This document shows, piece by piece, positions 52,760 to 57,543 of a stretch of DNA of 64,000 nucleotides. A program made the translations under genes and the position numbers. This DNA comes from Lactobacillus taiwanensis DSM 21401 (GTDB taxonomy: Bacteria > Bacillota > Bacilli > Lactobacillales > Lactobacillaceae). Position 1 is the first letter of the stretch. Each line of letters begins with the position of its first letter. Under the pieces are notes generated by a model. That model was not told the DNA's origin, made no database searches, and saw only the letters and a list, made by a program, of their open reading frames with translations. The stretch lies in the NCBI RefSeq assembly GCF_001436695.1, contig NZ_AYZG01000011.1:1-64000 (forward strand), written 5' to 3'.

Positions 52760-52819
52760 ATTTTTTGAAGTGCCTCATAATTGTTAGACATAAATCTAAT
52801 GATTGTGAGGCACTTTTTT

Positions 52820-53347
52820 ATGACCAAATATTCAACTGAATTAAAAATAGAAGTTGTTTCTAAATATTTAAATCATGTTAATTCATTATTAGGATTAGAA
52901 AAAGAATATGATATTCTTCCTAATTATCAAATTTTTAGATGGGTTAAATTGGCACAAAAACAAGGATTAGAGGCTCTTAGAGTTAAGCATACTAAGAAAG
53001 AATATTCTTTTGAATTTAAACTCGATGTGGTACGCTACTATCTAACTAATAATCAAGAACGAACAGAGGCAGCAGCTAGGTTTAATATCAACCCTTCTCA
53101 AGTGTATTCTTGGACACATAAATTTAATGAAGAAGGTATTGCTGGGCTGAAACCTAATCAGAAAGGATGCCCACGTAAAATACCTAAAAAGACGAAGTAT
53201 ATCAAAAAAAGAGCTCAGAAAATTGAGCTTAGCGAGAAGGAAAAGTACGAAGAGAAAATCTTACAACAAGAAGCTGAATTAGAAAGATTACGTATAGAGA
53301 ACTTAATCTTAAAAAAGTGGCTGCCCGATATCCACGTTATCCAATAG
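52820..53347 (+). CDS. IS3-family transposase OrfA
   Basis: This 175-aa protein has two helix-turn-helix segments (about 5-60 and 65-115, the second with FNINPSQVYSWTHKFNEEGIAGL) and a C-terminal coiled coil with leucine spacing (LQQEAELERLRIENLILKK). It binds IS ends. Start is ATG 52820; the frame open from 52781 lies in the left repeat. The -1 slip site A AAA AAG lies in phase near the 3' end. Confidence 0.85.
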   Translation: MTKYSTELKIEVVSKYLNHVNSLLGLEKEYDILPNYQIFRWVKLAQKQGLEALRVKHTKKEYSFEFKLDVVRYYLTNNQERTEAAARFNINPSQVYSWTHKFNEEGIAGLKPNQKGCPRKIPKKTKYIKKRAQKIELSEKEKYEEKILQQEAELERLRIENLILKKWLPDIHVIQ

Positions 53348-54230
53348 ACGAAAATCACAAATAATCCTGGATATTCGGGCTGAAGAACCTCAAGTTAAGC
53401 TTAAGACCTTATTTAAGCTGCTTAATTTAAATCGCAAAACTTACTACGATAATATCAAAAATCGTCTTGACAAGACTGATAAATACGCTGAAGTTAAGGA
53501 AAAGATCAAAGAAATATATTATGGTGAAGCTGATGAAACATATGGTTATCGTCCAATGTGGGCTGCTTTAAGAGATGAAGGTATTAAGCTTGCGATGGAA
53601 ACAGTGCGAAAAATAATGCGAGGTATTGGCATTAAAACCACACTGTATCATAAGAATACAGCTAAATATGGCTCTTATAAGGGGAATGTTGGCAAGAAGG
53701 CACTAAATATTCTTAACCAAACCTTTGATGAAACCAGACCTTATCATGTTCTACATACTGATGTGACAGAATATAAGCTAACTAATGGCAGAAAAGTTTA
53801 TATATCTCCAGTAGTGGATGAAGCTTCTTTAGAAATCTTAGCTTGTTCAGTTAGCCACTCCCCTGAGATGAAAACTATTTATAAAATGCTTGATGAGTTA
53901 GAGAAACATTTGCCTAAAGAGGCTAATCCTATCCTGCATTCAGATCAAGAATTTCAGTATCAAAATCCTGGTTATCAAGCTAGATTAAAAGAGATGAATA
54001 TTATTCAAAGCATGTCACGCAAAGGTAACTGTCATGATAATGCACCTGGAGAAACAATAATTAATCTAATGAAAAGAGAAAAACTAAATCGCTTGAAGAT
54101 TGGTTCATTGGAAGAAATGGAAAAAGTACTTCAAGAATATATCTACCGGTTCAATAACATCAGACGTTCCAATAAACTAAAATACACGCCCCCTGTTAAA
54201 TACAGAAGTCGTGTATTATCAAATATTTAA
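53311..54230 (+). pseudogene. IS3-family transposase OrfB, frameshifted
   Basis: The DDE integrase has LHTDVTEY, ILHSDQEFQYQ and the Glu in CHDNAPGETI. From the slip site the -1 frame reads KVAARYPRYPIDENHK and then meets TAA at 53362; the rest (LDIRAEEPQVKLKTLF onward) lies in another frame. One missing A near 53361 explains this: restoring it gives HKIILDIRAEEP. The longest intact piece starts at ATG 53556. Function is probably lost. Confidence 0.85.
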
Positions 54231-54242
54231 AAATTTATAAAA

Positions 54243-54267
54243 TGTCTAACTTTTGTATGGCACTTCA
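54243..54267. repeat. Right inverted repeat of the IS
   Basis: The reverse complement starts TGAAGTGCC and shares GTTAGACAT with the left end at 52766-52791. Confidence 0.8.
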
Positions 54268-54359: not shown

Positions 54360-54388
54360 TTGACATGATTAAAAAAGCATATTATTAT
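54360..54388 (+). promoter_or_regulatory. Consensus promoter of the peptide cassette
   Basis: A perfect TTGACA (54360-54365), 17-bp spacer and TATTAT (54383-54388) is among the best promoters in the window. It lies about 75 bases before the 32-aa peptide gene. Confidence 0.8.
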
Positions 54389-54439
54389 TAGTTTCAAATA
54401 AGAATGCTTTTAGCGTTTTAAAGTTAGGTGTTGATTTAA

Positions 54440-54538
54440 ATGAAAGAAGTATCAACAGAAGAAGTTATTGATTTGACTACTTTAGATGTAACTTTAAGTT
54501 ACACTCAAAAGAGAAACAGCTGGCAACTTTGGAATTAG
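54440..54538 (+). CDS. Candidate precursor peptide ending in Asn (microcin C-like)
   Basis: A 32-codon ORF starts MKEVSTEEV and ends RNSWQLWN followed by TAG. AGGTG (54426-54430) gives an RBS nine bases ahead, and a consensus promoter lies upstream. The acidic N-terminal half and polar, aromatic C-terminal half look like leader and core of a ribosomally made modified peptide. The last residue is Asn; MccB enzymes adenylate the C-terminal Asn of their precursors. A terminator-like hairpin then an MccB-like gene follow. I do not recognise the peptide itself; assignment rests on context. Confidence 0.6.
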   Translation: MKEVSTEEVIDLTTLDVTLSYTQKRNSWQLWN

Positions 54539-54572
54539 TCTGAGGATTATCAAAAAGGCACATGAATCAAAG

Positions 54573-54626
54573 AAATCCTACTAAATCATGGTAATAATAC
54601 GCCTTGATTTAATAGGATTTTTATTT
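54573..54626 (+). terminator. Hairpin between peptide gene and mccB-like gene
   Basis: AAATCCTACTAAATCA (54573-54588) pairs with TGATTTAATAGGATTT (54605-54620) with one mismatch, followed by TTATTTTA. It should give abundant short peptide mRNA with partial read-through, as between mccA and mccB in E. coli. Confidence 0.75.
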
Positions 54627-54679
54627 TAATAAAAATTCTAATTAATTTAGAAGTATTTTTAATATTTTTAAGGTGAAAG

Positions 54680-55393
54680 ATGTTTATATTACAAGATGGT
54701 ATTTTTTTATTTAAGTCACTTGATGATAAGAAACTAATAATTAGAAATTATCTAAATGGTTTAGTTATAAAAATAAATTATCAAGATTCTTTAAAAGATT
54801 TATTATGCTATTTAAAAAAACCACGAAGTAAAGGAGAAATTATCACAAAATTTTCTGATATAAAAAAGGATAATTTATATAGACAGAATTATGTGAAAAG
54901 TGATTTGAATAAAAAGAAAGTAGAAGTTCTTTTTGAAAGAGGTGGGCGCCCTTCGATTATTCTAATCGATATTATGTGTAATAATTCAGCCAAAATTGTT
55001 GATTTATGTAAGGAATATAAGATAGATATAGTGATTCAAGCTGGAGATTATCCATCTACAAGAGAATTGGCTAAATTAACAGAAATTGCCGCGAACGAAT
55101 TAAATATCTCCTATGTTATTAATGCGGGATACATAAGCAATGTTGTTTCGCTAGCAGAATTCTATTATCCCAACAATGTATATGATTTTTTATATAAACA
55201 TGAAATTTATAAAGAGAAACGAATATTTACTAATGCAAATAATAAGGCACAGTCATCTATAGTAGCTAATGTGGGACATATAGTAGCACGACAAATAAGC
55301 GACTATTGTGCTGGTAAAAAACCTTTTAAGTATCGGGAACGAGTTTTTTTCGATATTGGAGCTTTAGAATGGAGGACAGAAAAAATTGAATAA
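54680..55393 (+). CDS. MccB/E1 (ThiF)-like protein lacking the ATP-binding segment
   Basis: This 237-aa protein aligns with MccB-type E1-like adenylyltransferases. Residues 1-60 resemble the N-terminal peptide-clamp; residues 65-69 NLYRQ and KSDLNKKKVEVL match the E1 NLxRQ and GKxKxEV region; AGDYPS, ISYVINAGYISNVV and SSIVANVGHIVARQI match the second half of the fold. The first Rossmann half with GxGGxG and its Asp, normally between the clamp and NLxRQ, is missing in frame. CxxC zinc pairs are also absent. So it may bind peptide but not ATP, or be a decayed enzyme. RBS AAGGTGA. Confidence 0.65.
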   Translation: MFILQDGIFLFKSLDDKKLIIRNYLNGLVIKINYQDSLKDLLCYLKKPRSKGEIITKFSDIKKDNLYRQNYVKSDLNKKKVEVLFERGGRPSIILIDIMCNNSAKIVDLCKEYKIDIVIQAGDYPSTRELAKLTEIAANELNISYVINAGYISNVVSLAEFYYPNNVYDFLYKHEIYKEKRIFTNANNKAQSSIVANVGHIVARQISDYCAGKKPFKYRERVFFDIGALEWRTEKIE

Positions 55394-55487
55394 AAATTTA
55401 AATCTAAACTTTAGTAATGGTCTCTGGTTTCAAGGATTTAGAGAAAATGAGGATATCCAACAATATACTTTAGGAGTAGTTAAATGA
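55386..55487 (+). CDS. 33-aa coupled small ORF of unknown function
   Basis: TTG at 55386 lies nine bases after a strong GGAGGA (55371-55376), inside the end of the preceding gene. The ORF starts MNKNLNLNFSNGLWFQGF and its TGA overlaps the ABC gene ATG (ATGA). Strong RBS and overlaps on both sides argue that it is translated. I do not recognise it; it could be a carrier, a second precursor, or simply a coupling peptide. Confidence 0.5.
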   Translation: MNKNLNLNFSNGLWFQGFRENEDIQQYTLGVVK

Positions 55488-57077
55488 AGTATGTAATTCG
55501 AACCTATCCCAAACAAATATTACTGTTTAGTGTTTTATCAGTCATTTTAGCTATCTTAAATGTATCCAATGCTTTAGTTCTACAATTAATGATGAATGTA
55601 GCTACCAAAAAATCAAGTTTAAGCTACTCCTTTTTAGTCCTTATTGTCATCAGTTATATCATCATAAATGCAATTTTTTATTATTTTCAACAATATAATT
55701 CAGAATATTTAGCTAAAAAATCAATTAGCTTATATCGAAATATTATTTTTGAAAGAATCTCTGCTCAGAGAATTTCTTCTTTTACTAAAAAAGATAGTGG
55801 AGAGTATATTTCTTTAATGACTTCTCAAATGGATACGTTAGAACAAAATTACTTTACTGCTATTTTTTGGGGAAGTTACTTATTAATTCAGTTTATTACG
55901 GCATGTATTGTTGCGTTCTTTATTAATCCTGTAATGGCTCTTGTAGCTATTATATTAAGTATTCCAAATATGTTTTTACCGTTGTTATTTAGAAAAGTTC
56001 TTGAAAAAACAACTATTTAAAACTGTTAAGGCTACCGACACCTATATTTCTAAAATTTCAGATTATTTGAAAGGATTCGTAGACTGGAAAATAAATGGTG
56101 GAAGTAGTTTTGTGAAAAAGCAAGAAAAGTCGGCTAATAAAACTTTGCTTGCTAACCAAAAGAATGAAGTTAGAGCTATGAATCTATCTACTGTTTTTAA
56201 TAATACTTTTTCCAATATCTTGTACTTAGGAACATGGCTGATAGGATCTTTTTTGATTTTAAATAAAAGTATGACTGTGGGAGCAATTGTTGCATTTTCA
56301 CAATTGGTTACAAATATTTCATTTCCAATTTATAGCTTTTCTGATATGTTTTCTCAGATAGTTAGTGGGAAAAAATTATTCAAGGAAATTGAGTCAAGTT
56401 TTGTTAACGTTAAGAAAAATAATCCAGAAATACAAACTATTTCTGATTTCAAAAATATTAAATTTGATAATGTAAGCGTAGTTTATAATTCTGAACGTGT
56501 AGTTAAAATCGGAAATCTTGAAATATCCAATGATAAGAAATATGTGATCCATGGTCCAAGTGGAAGTGGAAAAACTACACTATTTAAACTTTTAACTAAA
56601 CAAATATTAGATTATCAGGGAAGTATTCTATTCAATAATATCAATATTAAAAAGATTAAAGATAATAGTATCTTTTCACAAGTTAGTTACTTACCTCAAT
56701 CAGGTCACATATTTTCAACGACATTAATCAATAATCTCACTTTGTTTAACACAGAGAAATACCCAAAAGAAGACTTATTCAAAGTTTTAAGATTTGTAGA
56801 GCTTAGGAAATGGGCTAATGAAGAAGAATTGTATAGAAAGATTGATCCTCAAAAAATATCTGGAGGAGAAGCTAAGAGAATAGAACTAGCACGCTTATTA
56901 TTAGATAAAAAGAATATTTTGATTCTAGATGAGTTTTCCTCTGGCTTAGACGAAGTTACTCGTCATAAAATTGAAAGTAAACTATTTAATTTAGAAAGTA
57001 CAATTTTGTACATTACCCATAATTTGGATGATGAGCTTAGAGAAAAAGCTGATAAAATTATTGAAATTAAAAAATAA
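55484..57077 (+). pseudogene. ABC exporter (membrane-ATPase fusion), frameshifted
   Basis: Two ORFs form one half-transporter of about 530 aa. 55484-56020 encodes membrane helices 1-4 and 56001-57077 (TTG) the remaining helices and ATPase with GPSGSGKTT, ISGGEAKRI and LILDEFSSGLD. The break is in a run of six A (56004-56009); with five, the text reads VLEKQLFKTVKAT without interruption. The exporter lacks a C39 peptidase. It would have exported the cassette's product. Either a true inactivation or corrected by slippage. Confidence 0.8.
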
Positions 57078-57432: not shown

Positions 57433-57543
57433 ACATCAGACGTTCTAATAAACTAAAATACACGACCCCTGTCAAATACAGAAATCGTGTATTATCAAAT
57501 ATTTAAAAATTTATAAAATGTCTAACTTTTATATGGCACTTCA
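57433..57543 (+). repeat. Second copy of the IS right end (111 bp)
   Basis: This matches 54157-54267 base for base in length with few changes: the last orfB codons and the right terminal repeat ending GGCACTTCA. It has the same orientation as the full copy, so 52766-57543 has proper IS ends on both sides and TTTTT on each flank. Confidence 0.88.

Follow-up and report, generated by a model that had tools for sequence, protein, structure and literature searches.

A locus of Lactobacillus taiwanensis that is very probably the decayed remnant of an MccB-like peptide gene cluster

Enzymes of the ThiF type act on short ribosomal peptides in several described systems. The microcin C (McC) precursors that were surveyed all end in Asn, and those of a minor clade are 17–56 residues long (PMC6495379). 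Other enzymes modify their peptides differently: IndF joins a Trp indole to the C-terminus (PMC12150305), GrcB forms a thiolactone (PMC12250964), and the product of EnfB is an imide (PMC12250964), the exact structure of which needs further nuclear magnetic resonance work according to PMC12150305. By comparison with MccB, EnfB is reported to require an Arg and a Lys to bind ATP and an Asp for Mg (PMC12250964). Here, we describe a related locus in a 64,000-nucleotide stretch of L. taiwanensis DSM 21401 (contig NZ_AYZG01000011.1, positions 1 to 64,000; hereafter, the window). The locus at 54360–57077 is very probably a decayed remnant of a Lactobacillus cluster for a ribosomally synthesized and post-translationally modified peptide (RiPP), with the gene order A-B-C-D, in which B combines a RiPP recognition element (RRE) with a ThiF (MccB-like) domain. 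This reading draws on the lesions in the window, the homology of the genes, their order in relatives and the absence of another B or C from the draft genome; from the lesions, we infer that the cluster has lost its function. A simple deletion has removed the ATP-binding half of the key enzyme B; the protein is thus most probably a dead relic rather than an enzyme of a new kind. A first-pass annotation of the DNA had placed the cluster at the correct coordinates; the 33-codon open reading frame (ORF) of C and the two frames of the exporter are additional to it. The features of the cluster are:

54360–54388, + strand: promoter-like site, TTGACA-17-TATTAT (consensus match only)
54440–54538, + strand: A, precursor peptide ORF of 32 residues, MKEVSTEEVIDLTTLDVTLSYTQKRNSWQLWN (ORF list, alignment with relatives)
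54571–54622, + strand: stem-loop in the A-B interval, with a T-rich stretch downstream (folding z; absent from a fixed-rule terminator scan)
54680–55393, + strand: B, degenerate ThiF/MccB-like adenylyltransferase, 237 residues instead of 299 (ORF list, relatives, alignments, model comparison)
54869–54878, + strand: deletion junction in B, a single copy of the 10-bp repeat GATAATTTAT (comparison with L001)
55386–55487, + strand: C, 33-codon remnant (N-terminal match to the ∼395-residue C; by eye, end similar to one C-terminus)
55484–56020, + strand: D, 5′ part, transmembrane part of an ATP-binding cassette (ABC) exporter, first 178 codons, ending at a frameshift (ORF list, Pfam)
56001–57077, + strand: D, 3′ part, remainder of the exporter with the ATPase domain, in another frame (ORF list, Pfam, match to P0017)

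The 62 codons that are missing from B correspond to 186 bp between two 10-bp direct repeats (GATAATTTAT), which are retained in L001, a metagenome-assembled Lactobacillus genome with the same locus. The alignment of the two loci, which takes in the transposase and a portion of a transporter gene upstream, has 98.0% identity in 2,883 columns and 98.6% in 705. A loss of 186 bp between such repeats is the usual product of slippage or recombination. It covers the third N-terminal helix (residues 63–75) and the ATP-binding beta-alpha-beta unit, the GxGxxG-type loop of which is not found in window B. The first-pass observation that the GxGGxG half is absent from the 237-residue frame is thus confirmed and traced to this deletion. 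Of the 237 residues shared with the nearest full-length relative, P0001 (representing 49 clustered sequences), 228 are identical; P0001 has a further 62 that window B lacks. The description of B as E1-like holds through its homology to full-length ThiF/MccB-like relatives and not through matches of its own, as the window protein had no Pfam ThiF match and only faint NCBIfam ThiF matches (best E-value 0.0026, 17.4 bits; cut-off 159). In structure prediction, proposed earlier as a check, the model of window B was poor, with no significant matches, and a full-length relative models as an MccB/PaaA-type enzyme. When the window model was compared by VIA, the 50 matches listed included neither MccB nor ThiF chains, which by the rule of the tool is not evidence of a different fold.

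The same deletion is present in the representative of P0002, a cluster of 11 sequences of which only this member was compared, and this protein is also truncated at its N-terminus. With 5 differences from the window in 195 shared positions, it represents another allele. That the strain truly has intact B and D genes, and that the lesions are errors of sequencing or assembly, is most improbable. The draft genome comprises 52 contigs (completeness 99.97% by the estimate of the tool), B of L001 has a frameshift in a run of A, a common error type, and the lesion in D lies in an A-rich stretch and is known from one sequence only. However, a loss of 186 bp between 10-bp repeats is a standard biological deletion, the distinct P0002 allele carries the same junction, and the drift of B at conserved sites and the loss of C are independent of such errors. 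Alleles that carry the 186-bp deletion and alleles that do not seem to differ in the length of a run of A early in B (L001:8001-8899, P0002), which may reflect recurrent slippage or an assembly error in the metagenome contig. The small group of the window, L001 and P0002 contains several lesions alongside one allele with an open 299-residue frame. No second B was found in the draft genome by several searches, one of which also missed the truncated B of the window itself, and a full-length copy acting in trans was rejected for this reason. The plasmid collection contained no near-identical copy of the locus, and the viral contigs contained no relatives of it.

Relaxed constraint is also suggested by the part of B that remains. 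Of the 70 columns that are invariant in seven full-length relatives, 11 are missing from window B, which has a different residue at 5 of the other 59. Such differences number 1 of 70 in P0001, and 1 and 0 in P0008 and P0010, respectively, both of which are incomplete. At four of the five drifted columns, the window allele is also present in L001 (read from its translation), which indicates that the drift predates the deletion. Between the window and L001, B has accumulated 6.5 non-synonymous and 2.5 synonymous changes (ratio 0.64), whereas the neighboring major facilitator superfamily (MFS) gene has accumulated 3 and 13 (ratio 0.066); for this contrast, which involves small numbers, Fisher p is 0.009 to 0.031, depending on the rounding of halves.

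The genes downstream of B are damaged as well. In a 3.6-kb search, the start of the C remnant matched the beginning of three of four C proteins, at 57–72% identity over 18–31 residues and with E-values of 1.7e-5 to 1.8e-6; a resemblance of the final residues of the remnant to the C-terminus of P0013 was judged by eye. C of L001 has the same 33-codon form, so C was most simply lost before the two lineages parted and thus before the deletion in B. No other C was found in the draft genome. P0017 (530 residues, cluster of 139 sequences) aligns with D through its residues 1–178 in one frame and 164–530 in another, the 3′ part comprising 358 codons. The ABC exporter of the first-pass annotation is therefore present at 55484–57077 on the + strand, but in two frames of 178 and 358 codons, which were not mentioned there, and not as a single intact frame. 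Because L001 stops before the frameshift site, the frameshift is known from one sequence only. A programmed frameshift was set aside, as the D proteins of relatives read in one frame.

With B devoid of the ATP-binding half and part of its N-terminal domain, C almost wholly deleted and D frameshifted, the pathway would be blocked in the window, and the 237-residue frame of B is, as part of this decay, very probably an open frame that survives passively. The first-pass annotation had left two alternatives, a decayed cluster or a variant in which the shortened protein binds the peptide without adenylating it; the junction, the drift and the lesions in C and D speak for the former. A functional variant, in which an E1-like enzyme has evolved into a non-catalytic chaperone or peptide-binding partner, is very unlikely: the deletion removes helix 63–75 of the N-terminal domain together with the ATP-binding half, the P0002 representative has lost its N-terminal part, no full-length partner was found in the genome, conserved residues of B have drifted, and C and D are broken. 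The junction, the losses in both domains, the drifted conserved columns of B and the damage to C and D also led to the rejection of a functional shortened E1. Several points weigh against decay. The ORF of A, its promoter-like site and the start region of B are all intact, and B could still be translated, since its deletion preserves the reading frame and the C remnant is also open. The deleted form of B is not unique to the window strain, and selective retention is unlikely. The ratio test for B is weak because only 9 substitutions underlie it, a low-confidence model of the shortened protein proves nothing alone, and the frameshift in D, taken from a single sequence, could be a sequencing or assembly error.

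Window A contains a leader segment, IDLTTLDV, and a core, SWQLWN; it is the 32-codon ORF with a terminal Asn that had been recognized from the start (54440–54538, ending in NSWQLWN), and it alone has a WxLxN ending among the 333 ATG ORFs of similar size in the window. Alignment with the short ORFs at the same place in two other lineages gave scores of 60 and 55, against 32 for the best of 724 other short ORFs, and for each pair of full-length A peptides none of 5000 shuffles reached the observed score. The A ORFs of relatives were chosen by eye, ending included, so their shared terminal Asn is not an independent test by itself; the test was hence repeated without the last six residues. The pairs then scored 33, 39 and 48 (best of other ORFs, 26–27; n = 724), which was reached by 1, 0 and 0 of 5000 shuffles, respectively. 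The A peptides are MKEVSTEEVIDLTTLDVTLSYTQKRNSWQLWN in the window, MEAIDLSSLEVSSAIGQAGTCWTLWN in G017, L025 and L026, and MNKEELKTVKIDLSSLDIKTSFNQAGVSWSLIN in L030. In the readable relatives, they are 26–33 residues long, with a [SC]WxL[WI]N end and a DL[ST][ST]L[DE] leader segment. Homologous clusters with a peptide not ending in Asn had been named as grounds for abandoning the assignment; the terminal Asn is present in all three lineages with readable DNA. The conserved core is limited to three lineages (G017/L. helsingborgensis, Aerococcus and the window group), because the searches yielded only these as close relatives. The sole change in A relative to L001 is Arg25, which replaces a Gly common to L001, L. 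helsingborgensis and Aerococcus. The consensus promoter reported upstream of A stands as a sequence match: with 11 of 12 hexamer positions, the site ranks first of 19, a number no greater than in shuffles (mean 21.5, sd 4.6).

The terminator-like hairpin between A and B was upheld as a strong fold (z = −3.95) and not as a terminator call, since a fixed-rule scan of the region listed two sites, both elsewhere. The corresponding stem-loops in the three lineages have z values of −3.95, −4.09 and −2.61, the second and third stretches including the end of A; in the Aerococcus interval, 2 of 200 shuffles fold equally well. Hairpin-like copies of 54570–54647 occur elsewhere in the genome (L014, L015 and L016; 85% and 88% identity, and 73% for the third). 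Each of the 85% and 88% copies is contained in a short element bounded by inverted ends (GTGTCTGGGAA... and ...TTCCCAGACA), and the hairpin may accordingly be derived from, or captured by, a small mobile repeat.

Protein searches returned 11 relatives of window B, eight of them full-length (299–318 residues) with a GxGTTGS motif; the full-length homologue that the first-pass annotation had suggested looking for in related Lactobacillus thus exists, and L001 keeps the missing 186 bp. B of L. helsingborgensis and of L001 matched the Pfam ThiF profile with 47.3 and 40.2 bits (cut-off 28.1). MccB is the nearest solved relative of the family by sequence and is among the first by fold. The N-terminus of the B model is formed by strands and three helices, and the RRE was assigned from this topology and from the alignment to the N-terminal domain of MccB; the family has an MccB-like fold with an N-terminal peptide clamp. 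The order A-B-C-D is found in G017 (= L019), in the L. helsingborgensis plasmids L025 and L026, and in G750 (L030), which matches the Aerococcus protein P0011. In L019, L025, L026 and L030, a leader-core precursor (26, 26, 26 and 33 residues) lies beside an RRE-ThiF fusion and a transporter, with C of ∼390–400 residues and D of 528 residues. As the last 300 residues of B are identical in G017 and L025, these two were counted as one lineage. C of the Aerococcus draft is itself split in two. Further relatives of B were present as protein hits in L. helveticus and L. acidophilus.

Some observations concern the surroundings and reach of the family. L025 is the 125-kb plasmid pIBH002-1, in which the intact cluster is preceded by three small genes annotated as hypothetical and lies ∼4 kb from a lantibiotic dehydratase gene. 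A relative of C (P0014, 395 residues, 43% identity) carries the name of Streptococcus pneumoniae, which may therefore have a similar cluster. The genome with the Aerococcus cluster contains a second, more distant ThiF-like gene (G750 contig 18, 59988–60458; L034). More distant ThiF genes in G060 and G738, which were not used in the comparison, carry Cys pairs; those of G024, G028, G066, G289 and G648, six plasmids and one cyanobacterial plasmid were also left out. No description of the WxL[WI]N group was found in the literature searched, the scope of which did not include the source study of enterofaecin mining.

In the intact relatives, B most likely adenylates the C-terminal carboxylate of A, as suggested by retention in the B family of the residues that align with NLTRQ of MccB, the following Lys, the Asp of ADHP, and NAGY. 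The leader of A (26–33 residues) would be bound by the N-terminal domain of B, which would use ATP to adenylate the carboxylate of the terminal Asn. The acyl-adenylate would then be caught by a nucleophile inside the [SC]WxL[WI]N core, forming a ring, or alternatively by the Asn side chain, leading toward a microcin-C-like nucleotide product. C would act in modification or immunity, and D would export the product. Ring closure is the somewhat favored fate of the adenylate, the nucleotide is a tentative second, and any other outcome is rather improbable. The core shared by three lineages and the precedents of IndF, EnfB and GrcB are on the side of the ring; the terminal Asn and the A-B stem-loops in three lineages are on the side of the nucleotide.

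A true microcin C system in the intact family (not in the window), i.e. a peptide-nucleotide poison of aspartyl-tRNA synthetase, is possible but doubtful. It would agree with the Asn ending, the stem-loops, the proximity of MccB in sequence and fold, and the known minor McC clade with precursors of 17–56 residues (PMC6495379). On the other hand, no MccD, MccE, MccF or HIT-type gene was recognized among 16 annotated neighbors (most of them 'hypothetical protein') or the scanned proteins, the residues beside the Asn are conserved here whereas the major McC clade keeps only the first Met and last Asn (PMC6495379), and the fold and initial chemistry are common to ThiF-RiPP macrocyclases as well. 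In line with the earlier statement that no MccE/MccF-like immunity gene is visible in the window, none was recognized in scans of seven of its proteins against Pfam and five against NCBIfam. The ∼395-residue C of the relatives has no match in either database and is nearly all gone in the window, so it could have an unrecognized role in immunity. A more specific and rather speculative proposal is that the intact relatives form a ThiF-RiPP subfamily not described before, with an MccB-like enzyme that closes a ring by linking the terminal Asn of [SC]WxL[WI]N to its Ser/Cys or to the invariant Trp, giving a lactone/thiolactone or an indolylamide that serves as a signal or bacteriocin. A Ser/Cys swap at one position occurs in agr-type autoinducing peptides; here, it would point to a six-residue (thio)lactone, if true.

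The window cluster lies between an upstream insertion sequence and a downstream remnant of its right end:

52781–54230, + strand: transposase ORFs in two pieces (188 and 224 residues) with helix-turn-helix (HTH) and rve domains, IS3-type by inference (ORF list, Pfam)
57433–57543, + strand: remnant copy of the right end of the insertion sequence, 95% identical to 54157–54267 (sequence comparison)

The stake of the window copy itself is small, as an example of the death of a cluster through a short-repeat deletion beside an insertion sequence. More interesting are its intact relatives, which occur in bee lactobacilli, in Aerococcus and, judging from protein hits, in L. helveticus and L. acidophilus.

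When the locus is compared with described systems, it belongs to the broad group of RRE-ThiF (MccB-like) RiPP clusters of lactic acid bacteria. It shares with MccA/MccB of microcin C7 from Escherichia coli, and with the L. johnsonii pair (PMC13255007), the ThiF fold and the N-terminal peptide clamp. The NLTRQ, following Lys, ADHP Asp and NAGY of MccB align with conserved residues of the family, the precursor ends in Asn, and a hairpin separates A and B. In contrast, the precursors of the main McC clade have 7 residues instead of 26–33, and the present family has a Trp-rich conserved core, an ABC exporter and a ∼395-residue C gene, with B truncated in the window. The label 'microcin-C-like' is apt for the fold and the C-terminal Asn, but membership in the microcin C family is unproven, and the Trp-rich core and lack of recognized Mcc accessory genes fit macrocyclizing ThiF-RiPPs equally well or better. 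Among these, the enterofaecin-type EnfA/EnfB of Enterococcus (PMC12250964) is similar in its leader-bearing precursor, Trp-rich C-terminus, RRE-ThiF enzyme, transporters, occurrence in lactic acid bacteria and nearby transposons, and differs in the WWIVI and (V/I)RKA leader motifs of EnfA, which contrast with the WxL[WI]N end and DL[ST][ST]L[DE] leader here. The indolylamide system IndA/IndF of S. pneumoniae (PMC12150305) likewise has an RRE-ThiF enzyme, a short precursor with a Trp near the C-terminus and a transporter, but it includes an M16 peptidase and its core ends in NWYFI, with the Trp three before the last residue, whereas here the Trp is four before it and no peptidase was recognized. 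GrcB (PMC12250964) similarly uses ThiF-like adenylation to form a ring on its precursor, although its clusters contain radical SAM enzymes and a stand-alone RRE, and the ring connects Glu to the C-terminal Cys. The [SC]WxL[WI]N core stands between nucleotide attachment and ring closure, and the intact A/B pairs would provide a clean test of what decides between them.
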